Origin: Bemisia tabaci
Lineage: Eukaryota > Arthropoda > Insecta > Hemiptera > Aleyrodidae
Reading direction: 5' to 3'
Length of the DNA: 64,000 bases
Assembly: GCF_918797505.1 (NCBI RefSeq)
Contig: NC_092796.1
Coordinates: 29,584,098-29,648,097, forward strand
The position numbers and the translations under genes are program-made. The notes under the pieces were generated by a model. The model had not been told where the DNA came from and ran no database searches. It saw nothing but the letters and a program-made list of their open reading frames with translations. Numbering within the stretch: position 1 is the first letter of the stretch; each line of letters opens with the position of its first letter. Positions 6,439 through 64,000 of this stretch are shown piece by piece.

Positions 6439-8033
6439 CCCTGTGCTCGATTAGCCTCCGACATGGCTGAGAAAAAATTCATAGATATATTTGAAGTCAG
6501 GCAACGTGGCCCATAAAACGGTCTCCTAAGCTCGCTACCCTGATTCAATTAGATTACGGCCGTAATAAATACAAACTTTCGAACTGAGTTCGATACGGTT
6601 GTGTCCGACTCCATTATACGGTTGTAGCATTCTTTCACCTAAGAGTCCTTAATGTCCTTGAGCTCCGTGATTCTGACTCATCAAGTTCAGTCATTACAGC
6701 CAAGTTAAAGACTTTCCTCCTCCTGTATTGTGTCCTCTGGAATAAGCATTCTATCAAATAATTATAATGAAAAGTCTTTAGGGCAGTAACATTTTTAGGA
6801 AAAGAAAGAAACGTGCCCTAACTACCTTTTCGATGGTTGAAAGAAAAAAAAATGAAATAGAACAAGCTCTTAATAAGTTAGTTAAGGCGCACCGTGAACG
6901 GGGAAAGAGGGTCAAACATTCTGAAAAAGTGCGTTACGCGATTTCGGGACGGTCTGCCCAACCAAAAACATAGGAAAAATGTTTTAAAAAAAACCTCTCA
7001 TCAGATCTACTGTAGTTTTCTGTAATTTAATACGTGTATAAAAAATTTTTCTTCTGAAGTTTAAAAAAAAATGGATGACAGAGTCTTAAAACTTTTTTAC
7101 ATACATTTTATCCCCCCCCCCCCTCACTCGAATAAAAAAATACTGAAAAAAGGTTTTATTTTGCGTAAATGTTTTCAGTTCCTTCCAGAGTTTCTGGAAA
7201 GCACTTTTCACCAGTCGCTGCCACTCACCATTTCAGTGCACCCCCGTGCTAAATACCCTGAATTATGAAGACGATCCATAACCCGCCGTGAAGGACCCGC
7301 AGGAAACCCGCGGAGCAATAAAGCTAAATTATTCCTCAATAATAAACGAGGAGTGTTTACGAGAACTTACGAGTCGCGCGGACTGATAATGCACATCGAT
7401 ATGCACAGAAGTACAGGGGAGAAAAAAACTCCAACTTGGCCCTCCGTCGCCGAGCTTGAGGAGTAGTAAAATTCGAGGTTAAGATACGTCCCCGGTTTAC
7501 TGCCCGGGCCATTACACAAAAGAAAACTTTACGCATAAAATAAATGTAGCCGGGGTAGCATCCGCCGTCCGCGCGCGGTGAGAATTATCATATTAAAAAG
7601 GAGTTGCAAAGGCTCCGAGTTAAAAGTAAAGGATGACTTCGGATGAGTGCGCATTTTAGATCAAACGAGTTACGGAGCTAAGTGCTCCTGCATGCTTTCC
7701 CGGGAAGGTTTTAAATTAAATTTTACAACTTTTTGATTCAGTCCGAAGTATTTCGACAACTTCTGCTAATGTCGATATAATTACTCGCCGTTTGAGCTTT
7801 ATTTTCATCCCTTCCTCTAATGAGCCCAACAACTTCTGAAATTATCAATTCATATAGCAGAGTTGATGAATTCCTAGAAATTATTCAAGTTTCACTCACA
7901 CAGAAGCAGGTCTGAAGACAGTGACAAGGCGCGAATGATCGATTATCGATATGTCGCAGGCAAATAGTGAAATCAGGCATTTTGTCAAATGCCTAGGCAA
8001 ATACTCAAAGCCAAGTTTCGCCCCTTTTTTTAT

Positions 8034-9050
8034 ACCCGAGTTGGTCAACGGGACAGTGCTCAAATGAAAGCCTATGGTAAGGCAAACTTCCATGCAAAGT
8101 TTCAACTTGAAGTGACCCCTGGTTTAGGCTGTACAGCGTTGCCAATTTTCCAGTTTCATGTGCTAAAATCAAGGATATTGGACTATTAGTCCGGGGCATA
8201 AGTAGACTAGTACACCCAAGTTGGTCAACGGGACAGGGCTCAAACGAAAGCTCATGGTAAGGCAAACTTCCAGGAAAAGTTTCAACTTGAAGTGAAACTT
8301 CGTTTAGGCTGTACAGCGTTGCCAATTTTCCATTTTTATGCGCTAAACTCACGAAATACTGAATCGTCATGGTTCAACAGACTATTATACCCGAGTTGGT
8401 CAACGAGACAAGGCTCAAACGAAAGCTTATGGTAAGGCAAACTTCCAGGAAAAGTTTCAACTTGAAGTGAAACCTCGTTTAGGCTGTACAGCGTTGCCAA
8501 TTTTCCATTTTTATGCGCTAAACTCACGAAATACTGAATCATCATGGTTCAACAGACTATTATACCCGAGTTGGTCAACGAGACAAGGCTCAAACGAAAG
8601 CTCATGGTAAGGCAAACTTCCAGGAAAAGTTTCAACTTGAAGTGAAACCTCGTTTAGGCTGTACAGCGTTGCCAATTTTCCATTTTTATGCGCTAAACTC
8701 ACGAAATACTGAATCATCATGGTTCAACAGACTATTATACCCGAGTTGGTCAACGAGACAAGGCTCAAACGAAAGCTTATGGTAAGGCAAACTTCCAGGA
8801 AAAGTTTCAACTTGAAGTGAAACCTCGTTTAGGCTGTACAGCGTCGCCAATTTTCATTTTTATGCGCTATACTCACGAAATACTGAATCATCATGGTTCA
8901 ACAGACTATTATACCCGAGTTGGTCAACGAGACAAGGCTCAAACGAAAGCTTATGGTAAGGCAAACTTCCGGGAAAAGTTTCAACTTGAAGTGAAAACTC
9001 GTTTAGGCTGTACAGCGTTTCCAATTTTCCATTTTTATGTGCCAAAATGA
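8034..9050. repeat. Left-arm tandem array, six units of about 175 bp
   Basis: Units begin acccgagttggtcaacg at 8034, 8214, 8389, 8564, 8739 and 8913. The inner units differ by only a few bases. The outermost unit (8034) and the last one are most diverged. Each contains the blocks aaacttccaggaaaagttt and cttgaagtgaaacctcg and the word gttgccaattttcc. Confidence 0.9.
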
Positions 9051-9892
9051 AGGAATTCGGGACTAATAGTCCAATGCATCATAATTAAACAGACTAGTGC
9101 ATCGGTCCACGAGCTGAATACTACCCTGAGATCGAATAGAAGCGCAACGAAAGGCCATCGTGAACTTTTCGAAGCAGTGTTGCCAATTTATTATTAATTT
9201 TTTAACATAAAATTAGGGTTTTTCCGAGATTTTTGGCGGAAAACGTACCTTCATGGGCTATAACTTTGATGAGTATGGGCTAAACATTACGACTTGATAG
9301 TAAATGAACGCTACAGACGTAGAAAATTGAATTCCGAACGCAATGTTGCCAAGTATATTTTAATTTCTTATAAAAATTAAAGATTTTCTCACGTGAATGC
9401 TTCGATAACGTAATTTCCAAGGCATTCATGTCATTCTGATGACTGAATATCACCATGGCATAGTACATGATTTCTGTTCAAGGCAAAAATGGAAAGTTCA
9501 GAGTAACGTTGCCAAATTGTGTACGTTTATTTTACGACGAGACGCCGATATTTTTGAGCTTTTCGTGCGAATAATCGTGCTTTCAGGTTCCTTCACCATA
9601 CAAGGTAGGCAAACTATTACCATACAATACTATCGGATTGATTTTTAAAAGAGAAGACGAATTTTTAAGTCTATATTACCATTTTAAGGCATTTAAGGGT
9701 ACGTTTTCCGCCAAAAATCTCGGAAAACCCCTAATTTTATGTTAAAAAAATTAATAATAAATTGGCAACACTGCTTCGAAAAGTTCACGATGGCCTTTCG
9801 TTGCGCTTCTATTCGATCTCAGGGTAGTATTCAGCTCGTGGACCGATGCACTAGTCTGTTTAATTATGATGCGTTGGACTATTAGTCCCGAA

Positions 9893-10565
9893 TTCCTTCA
9901 TTTTGGCACATAAAAATGGAAAATTGGAAACGCTGTACAGCCTAAACGAGTTTTCACTTCAAGTTGAAACTTTTCCCGGAAGTTTGCCTTACCATAAGCT
10001 TTCGTTTGAGCCTTGTCTCGTTGACCAACTCGGGTATAATAGTCTGTTGAACCATGATGATTCAGTATTTCGTGAGTATAGCGCATAAAAATGGAAAATT
10101 GGCAACGCTGTACAGCCTAAACGAGGTTTCACTTCAAGTTGAAACTTTTCCTGGAAGTTTGCCTTACCATAAGCTTTCGTTTGAGCCTTGTCTCGTTGAC
10201 CAACTCGGGTATAATAGTCTGTTGAACCATGACGATTCAGTATTTCGTGAGTTTAGCGCATAAAAATGGAAAATTGGCAACGCTGTACAGCCTAAACGAA
10301 GTTTCACTTCAAGTTGAAACTTTTCCTGGAAGTTTGCCTTACCATGAGCTTTCGTTTGAGCCCTGTCGCGTTGACCAACTTGGGTGTACTAGTCTACTTA
10401 TGCCCCGGACTAATAGTCCAATATCCTTGATTTTAGCACATGAAACTGGAAAAATGGCAACGCTGTACAGCCTAAACCAGGGGTCACTTCAAGTTGAAAC
10501 TTTGCATGGAAGTTTGCCTTACCATAGGCTTTCATTTGAGCACTGTCCGGTTGACCAACTCGGGT
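9893..10565. repeat. Right-arm tandem array, four units of about 175 bp, inverted
   Basis: Reverse-complement units end at cgggt near 10035, 10210, 10385 and 10565. The innermost and outermost units match the innermost and outermost units of the left arm, so two central units are missing here relative to the left arm. Confidence 0.88.
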
Positions 10566-12044
10566 ATAAAAAAAGGGGCGAAAAAACACCATTTTGACGG
10601 TCTAGAATTTATGGCGAAGAGGTCATGATTTTTTACTATTTTTGGAAAAATAACTCATCAAACCTACGAACTCTTTTTGTCTCTTCCTCTTAAATTGCTT
10701 CTCATATTTTTAAATGTTGAATTTCCAAAAATTCTGTATTTTACGACATGCTGAAAATTTCAAGATCAATGTCTTTTCAGGAGCTAAAAATTGTTTAAAA
10801 TACTATTGTGAGTTGCAAATTTTTACTGAGAATTTTTTCTTGTAGGAGTAATGAATTATTTTGTCTAAAATTAAGAAAAGAATCAGAATTTCAATCTAAG
10901 TTAGAATATTTGACTATTTGCCCAGGCATTTTACAAAATGCCTGATTTTACTATTTGCCTGCGACAGATATATTCCTATGTTTGGAACTACGGTAAAGAA
11001 TCTGTTATTCTGGCGTTCGTTGCGGACACTCTGTCTATCGATCATTTTCCATAGGTTTATGTCCTTGTGTGCTTTAATCACCTCTAATGAAGTACCAACG
11101 TCATCTGCCTCTGGAAGAGTTTAACACTTTGCAGCAGAGCAGGTCGAGTCGTTGAGCAAAAAAGTGCTTCCCTGACTTTTTAAACTTAATTTTTTTGTGG
11201 ACGCTCCGTCTCAACTTGAAAAAAAATTATAAAACATAACAAATTAAAACCAGGAGCTCTGCACAGAAGTGTTGCATTACCTCGTAAGATCAGTCATTCC
11301 ATTGATTTTGTGCTCTGAACTTCATACGAAAAGACATTCCCGATATCAAAACTTGGCCGTACTCAAAACGCCTTCAAATGCGACGTGATACCTCACGCAT
11401 TCCGAAGGGTACGAATAGTTGTATCATCGCGCCTTAGCAATGCGCCGGAGCCGGAAGATTGAAATTGAAAGAGCTTTCACGCACGCTAGCCCTGTCGGGG
11501 GTTTTTTCGGACATTTTTGACTTTGTTTTATAGTTATAGTGCGCTCCAACTAGCATTGTATTTAGCAAATGGGCAATTTTTATAGGAGAGTGAAATATAA
11601 ACAAGTGTCAAGAAATGAAACAAAAAAATAGGAACTGAAATCAACAATAAAATACAAAAAAAGTACAGAACCAAATGTGCAAAAAAGCTGGACCAGAACA
11701 AAAATACACCCAGAACGTTTCGCGCAGATTGCACGCTCCTTCTCAACTTGTACAAAAGCTATGAATACATTAAAAGAGGTAGATGGATACAGTAGCTTGT
11801 GAGATCAGTCATTCCATCGATTTGGTGCTACAAGCTTCATGCGAAACGACGCGACGGTCCCGATATCGTAACTGGCTGTTTTGAAAACGCCTTCAAATGC
11901 AACGTGATACCTCACGGATTCCGGAAGGTATGAATAGTTGTATCATCGCGTCTTAGCAGTGCGACGGAAGATTAAAATTGAAATAGCCTTTATTACGCTG
12001 AAAAAATTGAACTGCGGTGGCGCGCTACTTACTGAAGGTTTAGC

Positions 12045-13243: not shown

Positions 13244-13394
13244 ACGTGAATGATCGATTACCGATATTTTCCCATTTAGAGCTGTGGTAAGGAATCGATT
13301 AGTAAGGTGTTCTTTGCGGGCGCCCTGTTTATCGATCCTTTTCCATAGGTTTAAATGGCAGATACGTCAATGTATCGAAAGCACGCCACGCCAC
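13244..13394. mobile_element. ATCGAT-family miniature element, copy 3
   Basis: The blocks gaatgatcgattaccgat, aaggaatcgattag, tgtttatcgatccttttcc and acgccacgccac are present. It starts ten bases after the CGTAACT-family element ends. Confidence 0.7.
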
Positions 13395-14122: not shown

Positions 14123-14287
14123 AGGTGTTTGAATCGAAGCAGTTTCTCAACCAAACACGTGCTGTATAGACTTGGTTTACCTCAGTATGCGCGTTGCGAG
14201 CTTCAAATGAAGAGAAAATGGCCGTGGTGGGCACGCAAGGTGGATTTGAATGCAATTTCATGGTTTGTGTGTTTGTTTCTGTTGCAG

Positions 14288-14444
14288 GGAGCTTCCAGAC
14301 GGACGGGCAGCGTCTGGCGGGAACCGACTGCGATTATCAGCTAATAAGCAATAATTTAACGCGCTCCAGAGGCCGCTTCTTCTCACCTCGCTACCCCTCC
14401 AATTATCCGCAACATATCAAGTGCACCTATAAACTCCGTGCTAG
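14288..14444 (+). CDS. CUB1 exon a (N-terminal part of first CUB domain)
   Basis: The acceptor is a pyrimidine-rich tract ending gttgcag and the donor is CTAG|gtaagc. The exon starts in phase 1 (two bases complete a codon) and ends in phase 2 (AG). About 51 full codons read GSFQTDGQRLAGTDCDYQL, then a SRGRFFSPRYPSNYP block, then KCTYKLRA. The first and second CUB cysteines are in TDCDY and KCTYK, and SPRYPSNYP is the usual first-strand CUB motif (S-P-x-YP-x-YP). The reading frame stays open upstream to an ATG at 14194 with a short hydrophobic run (CNFMVCVFVSVAG). An alternative first exon starting there is therefore possible, but the strong acceptor favours an internal exon. A (CT)n run and a minisatellite lie right after the donor. 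Confidence 0.88.
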
Positions 14445-14462
14445 GTAAGCAACCCTCACATC

Positions 14463-37450: not shown

Positions 37451-37738
37451 AAGAGTTGTTTCGTGTAGAAAATGGCTCAGAAATCACAATGGGCGCATCG
37501 GGAAAGTCTCAAATATACTCCTAACTTTACAATCTGCGTATGAAATATGCATTTTTTTAAGTTTCCCGCTTCAAAGCAATACTACGGCCATAGGTGAACA
37601 AGTGAACGTTTCGTTGGAGAAGTCGTTGCATCCAACCCTTGCCCATTAGGATGCTGCACAATATTGAACATGACTGACACCAACCCGCCAAAACACACGT
37701 GAAGAGACGGGATTTTATCGACTGACGAGTTTATATTT

Positions 37739-45489: not shown

Positions 45490-45692
45490 GAGACACTTTG
45501 CAACGGTGCTTATGCACGTTGGCCATCGATTCCATTCAGGAGTTATGACTCAGAGAGCCTCTGAAGCAAACTCTATTGAGCTGCTGGTGTCGATGGGTTA
45601 CACGGATCAAATGTTTACTCGCATGGTGTGTAGCACCTTGATTATTTAATACTGATCAATTGACACTGATTATTGATATGTTGGTGTTTCAG

Positions 45693-45925
45693 TTGTCTGA
45701 ACCGGGCGGACGTGATCAAAGTATACGACGGGAGGAACAACCTGGCGCCGACGATAGCCATGCTCTGCAACGAGGTGACAGAGCAAGAGGTTCTGTCCAC
45801 CGGCTCCGACATGTACATCGAATTCATATCAAACTCCGACCTCCCAGGTCAAGGTTTCAAGGCCCTCTTCCAATTTCAGCCGGTTGCGACCTTGACCACG
45901 ACCAGCGATAGGTTGCACTCTATCG
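45693..45925 (+). CDS. CUB1 exon c (C-terminal half of first CUB domain)
   Basis: The acceptor is ggtgtttcag|T and the donor ATCG|gtaagc. The first base completes AG|T (Ser), followed by CLNRADVIKVYDGRNN with the third CUB cysteine. Then comes MLCNEV with the fourth cysteine, and TGSDMYIEFISNSDLPGQGF with the end of the fold. It finishes in a Thr-rich start of the linker (ATLTTTSDR). VYDG is the typical CUB turn before the calcium-site region. A 434-bp inverted-repeat element ends about 200 bp upstream and a CACTGG-family element starts 113 bp downstream of the donor, so the exon is hemmed in by transposons. Confidence 0.92.
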
Positions 45926-46037
45926 GTAAGCCCAATCAGAAATACCTACTTGTAGCCTGCAAATCCTTGAGGGAAGGGCTGGTTCAACCACCTCTGGTCA
46001 AACTTCACGTTAAATTTGGACGTATTCATGCTAAAAT

Positions 46038-46269
46038 CACTGGAAAAAAAACACATTGGATCCATAGAGTCCAGACTCTTGAACACATTGACAAGAAAAA
46101 ATACTCTTGATTCAATCGGATTTTTGCTTGAATCGAAACGGAAATCCGCTTAAATTAAGAGGCTTGGTTCTTGATTTAAGCTAGATTCTGATTGAATCAA
46201 GAGTAATTTTTCTTGTCGATGTTTTTAAGAGTCTGGACTCTATAGATCCAATGTGTTTTTTTTCCAGTG
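46038..46269. mobile_element. CACTGG-family element, copy D
   Basis: CACTGGAAAAAAAACACATT and aatgtgttttttttccagtg are perfect complementary 20-bp ends. It lies 113 bp after the donor of the CUB1 exon at 45693. Confidence 0.88.
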
Positions 46270-59352: not shown

Positions 59353-61063
59353 GTAAACCGGTTGAAATAAAGAAGGATAATTTGACGAAATAGGCCGAGC
59401 TTCAATCTCATTTTCTGAGTTTTGAACTTTACATTAATTTTTTTATTGTCTCCATACTTTTCTCAACTTCCTTTGCGAAGTTTCGTATTCAAGTTTAATA
59501 ATTCTCCGAGCGTTAAAATACGAATGATTGATAGAGTGAATGAATTTCATGCGACTCTTTTTATAATCAGCTTTAGTCTCTGAAACTTAGTTAATTTTAC
59601 CCTTTGATAAGGTGCCGGGTGTTTATATAAAAAAAGAGAGGGAAGGAAAGAAGCTAGGGGAGCAGAGAAAGAGAAAAAATAAATAATAGAAACGCTTAAA
59701 CGGTTACGGAAACTGCTCGAAAAGATTTATTTCAACACGACACTTTCCGAAAGCTGTGTCTGTTTGACCGAAGAATATTTATTTGATAGCTTTTTTATGT
59801 AAACAGTATCTTTATTCGTGTCTTTGTGGCATGAAGACACAAACTCACGCTTTTTTTGTTCAAAGAAAAAGTAATGGAACCGCACTGCCACCGTTGCAAA
59901 GTGCGCTCCACACGAACAGCACCGAAAAGTTCAATGGGGTGGAAAATGAGAGAAAGCTAAATGAATTTGCCCACCATGAAAAAAAGATGAACGGAGTTGA
60001 GAAAGTCACAGTCGGGTCGCAAAAGACCTCCAGGTTTCAGCATTTTACTCCGATTGTTTTCCCAAACAACGCGCCTTCAATCCCGAATGACGTGACTTGC
60101 ACTACAAACGAGGAGCCTGGAACATACTGCAGCAAGAAAAGTTAACCACCTTAACTTGCTACTCTTTTAAATAATATCCTTTGCTTTCTCTAAGTCTCGC
60201 GGGCTGTTGTTTTTATTTTATTTTTACATTTAATTTAATTAAATAATCAGAGAGCCTTCGTTAACGAAGCCGGTAAAATATTTAATTCTCTCCGACTTGT
60301 TGGGTCCATAATTACTTTATATCACAGGTCACAGTGAGTTAATCAGAAGTTTTCCATATTATCTCGACCAACAATAGTTAATTTCTACTTGCACTGCGAC
60401 TTACGTCAAGCCCCTTTTATGTGCAACATTTTATCTATCTATCACATCCCTCAACCAACACAGTAAATACAAAGTGAAGAGAATGTTTCGGTACTAATCG
60501 TTGAACAAGCACATTCTAAGCTTGAATTTTTCAAAAACGTATGTCACAGCGTTACATGTGCTTAAATACACATCCCAGGTGAAACTACCAGACCACGGAT
60601 CTCGTCTGCTGTGATTAAAAATTTCCGCTCACGTTTACTTTTCTTGAAGAAGACCAGATCAATATCATTCCTTGAAATTTTCAGAGAGTATGCTCTGCAC
60701 GAAGAAGAAAAATCACGGAAGTTTTAAAGAACTGACGTTGAGTGGTTTTTCATTTAAAAAATAAAATATGACAGGAAGACCACACCGCGACCGTCGCAAA
60801 CCGAGGTGGTGGTTTTACCGTCGACATTCAGTACCCCCCTATTCTTTGGTTTAAAAATCCCCTGGGTTCATCGGGATCCTATGGCAAGTTTTTTTTTTTT
60901 TTTATCCTAGGTAAAGATTTTCTAGGTGGTATGTCAACGTAGCTATTGTTTTTTGTGGTGAACAATTATTTTATGCATCTAAGCTTGGCTGTGATTGGAT
61001 TTTCAATTTTTCACAAATTTCAATCGTTGATTTCTAATGCCTATTGCGTTTCTATCTCACCAG

Positions 61064-61271
61064 ATTATGGTATTCATAGTGGGGAACAAATTGCAAACCT
61101 GCCTTGCGCCTTCACGTTCAACGGCACAATGCAACGCTCTGGAGTTCTGTACAGTCCAAATTTTCCTGGATACTACCCGCGCGATACTGAATGTCATTAT
61201 TTCTTCCAGGGAATAAATGATGATACCATCCATATTAAATTTCATCATTTTGACGTAGAAGGCGTCCCTCC
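61064..61271 (+). CDS. CUB3 exon a
   Basis: The acceptor is ctatctcaccag|AT and the donor CCTCC|gtaagt. It begins in phase 1 and ends in phase 2. It reads YGIHSGEQIANLPCAFTFNG, then SGVLYSPNFPGYYPRDTECH, then YFFQG and IHIKFHHFDVEGVPP. Cysteines one and two are in PCAF and ECHY, and SPNFPGYYP is the CUB strand motif. NGT is a possible N-glycosylation site. A hydrophobic run upstream in the same frame (from an ATG at 60946) is intronic, since the acceptor and phase fit the preceding CUB2 exon. Confidence 0.93.
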
Positions 61272-63644
61272 GTAAGTATCCCTTTACTGGTAACCTGTAG
61301 TTTTTGTATTTCTTCCAAGGTTTTTCCGCCTTCCTCTGGTCCTTGTAATTTTCTAATTTTCCTAATCATCCATACTGAAACTCTTAACTTGTAATTTTGT
61401 TAATTGTAAGAACAGGCAACAACCAAACGAGGAACTTCAAATATTAATATCGATTACCAAAGTGCCAAACCTCGTATCTCCACCGCAGTATTTCCAAATG
61501 TCCGCTCCAATTTTACTTTTTTCCAAGAAAAACAAACCAACTCTCCAGGTTGACATTTATGCAGAATATTCTCTAAATAGAGACGAAAAATTAAGGAAGT
61601 TCTCAAAAAAATATGGTGACTGGTTTCCCAATGAAAAATTAATGTATGGCAGGAAGTCTATAACATCGCAATCGGACATACGCGGATTCGCACTGTATAG
61701 TCATCGATATTTTTTAAGGGGTAAAAAAAATGTACCACCTCAATTTTTTTCCATCATTTTTAACATTTCCGAATTTTTACCAATTCGATGATAAATCATA
61801 GGATCTGGCTTAGCTCACCCTGCCTATTTTCTCACCCTATTTGCTTCAACTGCAGCCCTTCATATTCACAAAATACGTCCATGGCATGCATGTATGCATG
61901 GGTATTTTATGAACAGCATTCTCGTTAACAATAAAGGTTTGGAAACTTTTATTCGCCCAAAAAGCCGATCAGATCATCGAATGGCGAGGTTTATTTATTA
62001 ATAAACACCGCTTTACTTTTTGACCGAGCGAGCAACAAAAATGAAGATCCAACGGATTTAAACGAATCGGTCTTTATTCCGCAGCCTACGTTTGTAACCT
62101 GCATAATTTAACGGGTTTGCATTTCCAATACCTCGGACCCCGAAATTCTGAATTTGATTTAAAACATTCGACATTATCAGAGAGCGCTCGAAACTCCATG
62201 TTCCCTCTTTCATGTGAAATATTTGGAAAAACACATAGTTGCCAGTTGTGTGCCAGATTGTTCTCAATTTTGCAGTTATTTTAATTCTTTGCAAAATTTG
62301 GATTGAAAGTCAGAGAAATATTCAACTTTGGCAAGCACAAAATCTTTGATTAGTGACGATCGATTTGAGAACCCAATTAATTCTCCTTAAATTTTTTATT
62401 AGTTTTTCATTAATCGATGGAAACTTGCTATTATACATACATAAAATCCGCTTTTATGACGCTCTGCGACATCCAGCCGCCGAAGTCCCCTATCCTCCCA
62501 AAGCCCTTCAGGGAGTTAGCACTTTCCTCATTTCTTCTAAGGCCCCCTGTCGCCACCTTTTCACTAAACGTCCACTTCGTCTCCTCAGAGAAAGAACCCA
62601 ATCAATCCCTATTAAGTCCTGGTACCTCTTCAGTTTTAGGACCAAAATTTTTCCTTATCATGATTGTAATTTAGGGGTTAGGTGGAAAACGGCCAAGCAC
62701 GGGATACGATGCAATGATAAACAAGCCGTTAGTTATGTGTAAAATGCACGTGGGTCATACTATGGGTTCGTATGCGGTAACATTCGTTGATTTAAACCCT
62801 AAAGTATGAGTTTGTGCAAGAGATGTCATTGGGCATGATTGGAATTGAGAAACATTAGAAATATTGAAGGTCTAATTTGGTCATTTTTCTGCATTTTTAA
62901 AACACTTGTGACTGATTTCCTCCTTCGAGTAATTGACTTTTTAGACAGAAAATGTACTTAACAATGTTATAAGGTTCAAAAACAAAACACTGAATAAAAT
63001 ATAAGTTTAGTGTAGCAAAAAATACAAAAATGAGCTTTTTTTTAAAAAAATGGACATTTTGGACACATGCCATACACTACATGTAGTTTTAAAAAATGTA
63101 TTCGCCGGAAAAATGACCTAATCCGAACTTGGCCGTTTCCTAACTCCTTAATTTTTTTCCTCGAAAATATGAGTTGCTCATTAGGACATATTCTTACTTT
63201 TCTATCTACCAGCCTCTTTTTTCCCTCCCCTGACGGCGTTGACCTCTCGGTGCCTTTGAAACTTCTTTGAGCATTTTTGGCTGATTCCGATCAGGAAATG
63301 CACTGATGACGCCATTGGAGCACCGAGCACCCCTCGCTGACATCACACTGAAAAAAATGGTATGCTGTTTTAGCACCTAGAATGTAAAAAAAAGTGTCTG
63401 GTGATCCTAGGACGCTACCCTGATTGCCCACGCAGTTGAATTTGCATTCATAGGATGTAAAGTAAACTGCGAGGGTAGTAAAAGCAGCATCTTGGGATCA
63501 CCAGACACATTTTTGGCATCCTATGTGCTAAAACAGCATATTGTTTTTTTCAGTGGCATCTAGAGATCTTTTGAATTTTTCTGTTTATGCCGATCTCTCC
63601 ATCAATTCATTTAATTAAGCCATTGAAATGTGTTTTGATTTCAG
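61272..63644 (+). other. Intron inside CUB3
   Basis: A 2.4-kb phase-2 intron from gtaagt to tttcag. It contains a 210-bp inverted-repeat element at 63346-63555, only 89 bp before the acceptor. The remainder (61272-63345) shows no supported feature. The open frames seen there lack domain signatures or splice logic. Confidence 0.75.
63346..63555. mobile_element. 210-bp inverted-repeat element, CACTGAAAAAAA ends
   Basis: CACTGAAAAAAATGGTATGC and gcatattgtttttttcagtg are the ends. Further in, tgtctggtgatcctagga pairs with gggatcaccagacac. No clear TA duplication is seen. It sits 89 bp upstream of the CUB3 exon b acceptor. Confidence 0.8.
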
Positions 63645-63889
63645 TTGCGAGGCGATATCAGCCAGTGATTACGTAGAATTTTCCAATTTCATGGCCCGAG
63701 ACCGCCGTTACGAGCGGTATTGCGGCCAGAAGGAGGCGTTCGAAATTAAATCAGATAGGAAATTTTTTAGAATAACCTTCAGATCCAACGATCGACTCGA
63801 CGGGACCGGGTTCAACGCTTCGTATCGTTTCGTCCGCAAAATGGAGCAATCTGTGTCTTCGCAACCTGTAGCTAAAGCCAATCATTCAG
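63645..63889 (+). CDS. CUB3 exon b
   Basis: The acceptor is ttgatttcag|T and the donor TTCAG|gtacgt. The first T completes CC|T (Pro), then CEAISASDYVEFSNFMARD with the third cysteine, RYCGQKEAFEIKSDRKFF with the fourth, and SNDRLDGTGFNASYRFV closing the domain. A Ser/Gln/Ala-rich linker follows (SVSSQPVAKANHSG). NAS and NHS are possible N-glycosylation sites. It ends in phase 1, so at least one more exon lies beyond the window. The family expectation is a further CUB domain and a membrane segment. Confidence 0.94.
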
Positions 63890-64000
63890 GTACGTGCGAT
63901 ATTTCACCCTTATTGTTTATTTTTTCGTGAAGAATATAACCGAATCGAGATTGCGTGAAATATTGAGTTCCTAAATTTGATTTTATGCTTCGGATGTCTC

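Follow-up and report, generated by a model that had tools for sequence, protein, structure and literature searches.

The foldback elements FB, Galileo and Tetris of Drosophila, as far as the available accounts of them extend, have long inverted arms of variable size, which are built of repeats in FB and Galileo. Drosophila FB makes a 9-bp target duplication. Spy transposons are said to belong to the PHIS superfamily and to have been described by Han et al. in 2014. In the portions of the literature available here, insertion within AAATTT without target duplication is given as the hallmark of Spy transposons (PMC4482050), and the active element cgSpy from the insect Colletes gigas has the same AAATTT target, no duplication and 467-bp terminal repeats (PMC11304231). 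Sources of similarly partial coverage describe Ginger2 transposons by TGTNR ends, 4-bp duplications, terminal repeats of approximately 50-180 bp and the target RTATAY (PMC2836005, Bao et al. 2010), and report Ginger elements from the whitefly Bemisia tabaci (PMC9143410). In this study, we analysed a 64-kb stretch of the B. tabaci genome (contig NC_092796.1, positions 29,584,098 to 29,648,097; hereafter the window), in which a first-pass annotation had placed one 3-kb foldback transposon with a 4-bp target duplication at positions 7952-10966. Coordinates given without a contig are positions within the window, which sits in the contig labelled C4 of the 610-Mb assembly (151 contigs). It is highly probable that the locus is nested, consisting of a Spy-type foldback element inside a Ginger2-like miniature inverted-repeat transposable element (MITE), which is itself inside a repeat of the ATCGAT family.

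The locus at positions 7952-10966

The 16-mer TGTCGCAGGCAAATAG is exact at 7952-7967 on the forward strand and at 10951-10966 on the reverse strand, and the only other match to it in the window at up to three mismatches lies at 6448 (three mismatches; shuffles average 0.51 such matches). The flanks read ...ATCGATA and GATATAT..., with GATA bordering the locus on both sides. When 7952-10970 is removed, the remaining sequence aligns without a gap at the insertion point with six other ATCGAT-family copies in the window (13244, 2696, 36201, 43774 and, on the reverse strand, 3146 and 18365). The locus itself, 3015 bp in length, carries inverted arrays of a 175-bp tandem unit, its longest stop-to-stop frame is at most 123 aa, and neither blastn nor nhmmer found a match to it in the rest of the window. 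The first-pass annotation was accurate on these points, having described perfect 16-bp ends bordered by GATA, clean rejoining of a copy that aligns with the one at 13244, and long inverted tandem-repeat arms with no coding sequence.

Its view of the locus as a single transposon did not survive comparison with the genome. In a search with the whole 3015 bp as the query (304 matches from the best 40 of 2413 candidates, about half of them listed), query positions 1-58 were covered, among the matches listed, by the window's copy only, and many other matches started exactly at 59, which is window position 8010. According to blastn, window 7952-8009 corresponds to positions 1-58 of a 444-bp MITE consensus and 10591-10966 to positions 58-444 (base 10591, an A, is assignable to either the MITE or the foldback), and over ungapped consensus positions the two pieces share 96.2% identity with the consensus. 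At the junction, marked here by a slash, the consensus reads GTCAAA/TTTTGAC, and AAATTT is present there in 20 of the 28 short copies. Another foldback copy (C1:35049525) has flanks that align to an uninterrupted paralogue in the stretch L025, which reads ...ACACAAA/TTTCTAACGC..., where AAATTT is unbroken and no base is added or missing. Because AAA and TTT are present in both the MITE consensus and this paralogous empty site, they are part of the target, which leaves GAGCC...GGCTC as the extent of the element. The foldback inserts between AAA and TTT, without target duplication.

The perfect ends and GATA are those of the 444-bp MITE, and the arms are those of another multi-copy family, with its own ends and no duplication. 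Since the two sets of features have different owners, the puzzle of a foldback with a 4-bp duplication, which the earlier description had raised, no longer arises, and a separate mobilising enzyme can be put forward for each element. In the order of events proposed here, the MITE, with TGT...ACA ends, entered the ATCGAT-family repeat and duplicated GATA, presumably through a Ginger2-type enzyme. Later, a non-autonomous foldback entered between AAA and TTT at MITE position 58 without duplication, a step shown by the MITE consensus, the other ends of the foldback family and the paralogous empty site of another copy.

The 444-bp MITE and its candidate enzyme

The expectation that the 16-bp ends recur in the genome with 4-bp duplications was borne out, for the MITE. 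At up to one mismatch, TGTCGCAGGCAAATAG is found at 1963 places in the assembly (976 + 987), and its reversed control at 2 (2 + 0). From the first 100 places listed, 40 stretches were taken, which yielded 29 end pairs (38 of the 100 places lay outside this sample). A perfect 4-bp duplication is present in 24 of these pairs, while four have 3 matching bases and one has 2; no exact duplication of 3, 5, 6, 7 or 8 bp occurs among them. Shuffling the flanks among MITE copies gave 1.9 perfect 4-bp matches on average and never more than 7, compared with the 24 observed. This count left out rows L002-L009, in which L004 is the same element as the counted L012, and L007/L008 and L009 are two further MITE elements.

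Short copies of one family account for 28 of the 29 pairs, and they are 62-97% identical to their 444-bp consensus. The termini are TGTCG, matching TGTNR, the overall ends are TGT...ACA, and the terminal repeat is approximately 60 bp in length. The symmetrised target of the 24 copies with a perfect duplication is T-R-[TATA]-Y-A, and the fit of these copies to RTATAY averages 4.29 of 6 positions, compared with 2.36 in random draws. In its ends, 4-bp duplication, RTATAY-like target and terminal repeat length, the MITE resembles Ginger2/TDD elements as characterised in the available part of PMC2836005, and it differs from them in being non-coding. We infer that it was most likely mobilised by a Ginger2-type integrase-like transposase. 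The MITE tips in the window (7959-8010 and 10908-10960) contain near-repeats of GGCAAATAGTNAAAT around the 20-bp palindrome AGGCATTTTGTAAAATGCCT, and these are possible transposase-binding sites.

Several candidates for a coding or longer relative of the MITE were rejected. Many of the rve and Integrase_H2C2 matches fall in long frames as in long terminal repeat (LTR) elements, as judged from frame lengths, and the closeness of these matches to unpaired 16-mer ends on contig C1 was compared by eye only. The open reading frames L097-L101, considered as Ginger transposases, are without terminal inverted repeats around the frame; other inverted repeats are contained in L099 and L100, and L097 seems to start like a copia polyprotein, as read from the sequence. 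A repeat of at least 2.4 kb at four loci (repeat X; L002/L010, L003/L011, L026 and L049) was considered as a longer relative and carries one embedded 59-bp MITE tip, not at its edge, with shared sequence on both sides and then GC-rich hairpins. The sole 16-mer match in a scan of viral contigs (L001) was regarded as a chance match, as nothing else was common in the 200 bases around it, and a literature search for the 16-mer found no paper.

The foldback family and the Spy-like elements of the genome

Other foldback copies lie in unrelated flanks and have conserved ends, which read AAAGAGCCTCGCCAAGTTT... in one arm and AAAGAGCCTCGCCAAAAAGTGGTG... in the opposite arm. GAGCCTCGCCAA is found in 33 of 40 foldback end stretches, each time after AAA; of the remaining seven, six have no end and one has the variant end AAAAGCCTCGCC. 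The ends can thus be written as AAA/GAGCCTCGCCAA, or in short form AAA/GAGCCTCGCC. The exact 15-mer GAGCCTCGCCAA is present at 272 places in the genome (reversed control, 1). The end-pair analysis covers the first 100 of these listed, of which 74 form 37 convergent pairs of 567-7151 bp, none form divergent pairs and 26 are unpaired; the longest of the 37 pairs (G000:C1:83761286-83768436) spans 7.15 kb. No duplication of at least 6 bp was found near the ends in 10 of 10 copies, which also leaves no place for the 9-bp duplication of FB, and no direct repeat of at least 3 bp was found at the edges in 13 of 13 copies with both ends, one of which has a chance-like 2-bp match. Compared with FB, Galileo and Tetris, within the same available accounts, the whitefly foldback has other ends, no 9-bp or other duplication and a Spy-type target. 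Muta1-type Mutator-like elements also have tandem repeats near their ends, but they form a Mutator-like family and are likened here by description only, from part of the source (PMC5225508).

In the window's own foldback copy, GAGCCTC (7 nt) is missing at the left terminus (position 8010) and the last 16 nt at the right terminus (position 10591), and the host half-sites AAA and TTT are unaffected, as judged by eye. Losses confined to the element's side could, as a guess, come from aborted excision. Both MITE-foldback junctions, searched as exact 18-mers that would let a diverged second composite escape detection, are single-copy in the 610-Mb genome, and there is accordingly no sign that MITE and foldback moved together. 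Given the missing tips and the unique junctions, this copy is best read as a single, terminally damaged insertion, and it is probably immobile.

The units of the two arms pair as L1-R1 (98.9% identity), L2-R2, L5-R3 and L6-R4 (99.4% each), the left arm having two units more. R3 is equally close to L3 and L5 (99.4%) and was paired with L5 as both read CTATACTC. This pairing suggests that unit number probably varies through unequal exchange and that the arms are kept alike through gene conversion. A 127-aa protein prediction in ENA (P0001) is 98% identical to the translation of the foldback arm and is probably a spurious gene call from the repeat.

Across the genome, 103 matches to the DDE_Tnp_4 profile were obtained; a frame length of exactly 681 aa is shared by 16 of these, which suggests recent activity of Spy-like elements. 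One copy of each of four Spy-like elements was measured, and their terminal repeats are 98.7-99.8% identical. Spy-A (L090, G000:C1:9781300-9786800), one of those with the 681-aa frame, has AAA/GAGGTCTGTGC ends and 854-bp terminal repeats of 99.6% identity, Spy-B (L092) has AAA/GAGGTTGTTCC ends, 641-bp terminal repeats and a frame of 688 aa, and Spy-C (L093) has AAA/GAGGGTTATTC ends, 763-bp terminal repeats and a frame of 675 aa. In Spy-D (L091 and L094, G000:C2:37269200-37277000), the ends are AAA/AGGAC, the terminal repeats are 818 bp in length with 98.7% identity and the frame is 720 aa. The inverted arms of Spy-D consist of 176-bp tandem units, with 5.5 copies in one arm and 2.6 in the other, and this element has foldback architecture itself. 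A Spy element is expected to encode a PIF-like DDE transposase with an HTH DNA-binding domain. DDE_Tnp_4 matches above the cut-off in 4 of 4 proteins (frames of 675-720 aa), HTH_Tnp_4 matches 3 of 4, each below the cut-off, and the proteins are mutually 43-47% identical with a common D, D, E pattern, the triad being recognised by eye. The four elements lie between AAA and TTT, and no direct repeat was found at the edges of 4 of 4. As read from these sequences, Spy-like elements of at least four kinds, each with an intact transposase frame, are present in the genome.

These elements resemble cgSpy, as covered by the available part of PMC11304231, in having one DDE_Tnp_4 transposase of more than 500 aa and long terminal repeats. 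The foldback resembles Spy, within the same kind of partial coverage (PMC4482050), in inserting within AAATTT with no target duplication, and differs in its non-coding sequence and its arms of 175-bp tandem units of unequal number. In the last part of the proposed mechanism, a Spy-type DDE transposase would act in trans on the foldback, joining its ends to AAA/TTT without a stagger. We infer such an enzyme because of the target, the lack of a duplication and the presence in the genome of Spy-like elements with AAA/GAG or AAA/AGG ends. The features of the locus are compiled in the table.

Features of the probably nested locus in the window, with the basis of each assignment
Feature	Position	Strand	Basis
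GATA, MITE target duplication (4 bp), left copy	7948..7951		flank reading, empty-site alignment
MITE positions 1-58, left terminal repeat, ending in host half-site CAAA	7952..8009	+	blastn to 444-bp consensus, 96.6%; perfect 16-bp end
Putative Spy-type foldback, between AAA and TTT of the MITE	8010..10591		genome matches starting at query 59; full ends in other copies; unique exact junctions
Left array, 5.8 copies of 175-bp unit	8030..9046		Tandem Repeats Finder; unit pairing with right arm
Single-copy foldback centre, about 448 bp, without match to Spy-like proteins	9250..9697		inverted-repeat, frame and protein comparisons
Right array, 3.8 copies of 175-bp unit, inverted	9902..10569		Tandem Repeats Finder; inverted-repeat comparison
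Right part of the MITE (positions 59-444), including its right terminal repeat	10592..10966	+	blastn 91.5% to consensus over 10591-10966
GATA, MITE target duplication (4 bp), right copy	10967..10970		flank reading, empty-site alignment

Elsewhere in the window, 11198-11477 and 11730-11990 form a local duplication of about 74% identity beside an ATCGAT copy. CUB-domain matches were found in 4 of 7 frames tested (14287-14445, 45670-46107, 60943-61272 and 63619-63927), which are probably exons of a host gene.

Alternative explanations and meaning for Spy transposons

Several findings weigh against the nested reading or one of its parts. A perfect duplication is lacking in 5 of the 29 MITE pairs, and the two left-out elements match at 3 of 4 and 2 of 4 bases, which brings the count to 24 of 31. 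In the window itself, the MITE target is CGATAT, which agrees with RTATAY at no more than 4 of 6 positions, and a more diverged window-side paralogue of the L025 site (near 37546) reads GCAT/ATTTC, with AAATTT changed. No transposase of the Ginger2 kind, with H2C2 and DDE but lacking GPY/F, was linked to the MITE ends in the search for Ginger-type candidates (rve, Integrase_H2C2), which scored the best 150 of 806 candidates and the best 150 of 619. According to blast, the foldback arms have no sequence in common with those of Spy-A or Spy-D, and none of the matches between the foldback-bearing element and these two exceeds 47 bases (E 0.048 or worse). No DDE_Tnp_4 match was found between the listed foldback ends among the 24 matches compared, which lie on C1 and on the first 62.5 Mb of C2 and were set against 100 of the 272 ends. 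Because no transposase is tied to the MITE ends, its Ginger2 assignment is drawn from ends, duplication and target, and because no transposase gene lies between the foldback ends, Spy membership of the foldback rests on its target and ends.

The lack of an enzyme for the MITE also speaks for a place outside Ginger2, in a different integrase-like superfamily or in one not yet described. TG...CA ends with 4-bp duplications are found as well in IS481EU and LTR elements, according to the available part of PMC10045372. We regard this assignment as unlikely, though the strongest of the alternatives, since IS481EU is reported from parabasalids with duplications of 4, 15 and 25 bp, whereas the MITE shows 4 bp only, and since the TATA-centred MITE target fits the RTATAY given for Ginger2 in the accessible text of PMC2836005.

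For the foldback, the lack of an autonomous partner with the same ends among the places checked would be in keeping with movement by a non-Spy PHIS-type transposase, or by an unrelated enzyme that leaves no duplication. This is distinctly improbable, as the literature gives duplication-free insertion at AAA/TTT as the hallmark of Spy (PMC4482050, as far as available) and Spy-like elements with AAA/GAG or AAA/AGG ends are present in the genome.

A composite foldback, in which MITE tips and core move as one unit with 4-bp duplications, would account for the perfect, GATA-flanked outermost ends and the clean empty site, but it is scarcely credible, because both exact internal junctions occur once only in 610 Mb, coreless MITEs and cores without MITE tips are both abundant, and the outer tips differ at 4 of 58 positions versus 6 of 883 in the inner arms (units L3 and L4 left out of the 883; Fisher p 0.002), as expected for elements of different age. 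These differences are in keeping with the MITE being older and the foldback being either younger or gene-converted. Internal deletion is a frequent source of MITEs, and here core and MITE share one locus, but a 444-bp MITE derived by deletion from the foldback-bearing element, with the core as its ancestral interior, is just as hard to sustain, given that other cores have their own conserved ends in unrelated flanks and that the MITE consensus keeps AAATTT intact at the junction.

The nested reading separates two elements that look like one, removes the apparent contradiction between foldback arms and a 4-bp duplication, and proposes an enzyme that may move a large family of foldbacks. It shows that long tandem-repeat arms can accompany insertion of the Spy type, without target duplication, and annotation that demands a duplication could overlook foldback insertions of this kind. 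In the open literature searched, no paper was found that combines Spy transposons with foldback, or Spy transposons with Bemisia, and a foldback form of Spy appears to be undescribed.

We lean slightly towards the view that whitefly Spy elements acquired foldback arms of approximately 175-bp units more than once, with the arm units serving as repeated transposase-binding sites, which would make them a new structural class. If this is true, Spy-D (720 aa, 176-bp units) would be an apparently autonomous foldback form, and the foldback family would be a non-autonomous one with unrelated arm sequence and, judging by its 272 exact ends, probably over 100 copies. Foldback elements would thereby be linked to an enzyme that leaves no target duplication, and the intact Spy-like copies with near-identical terminal repeats make their mobilisation directly testable.

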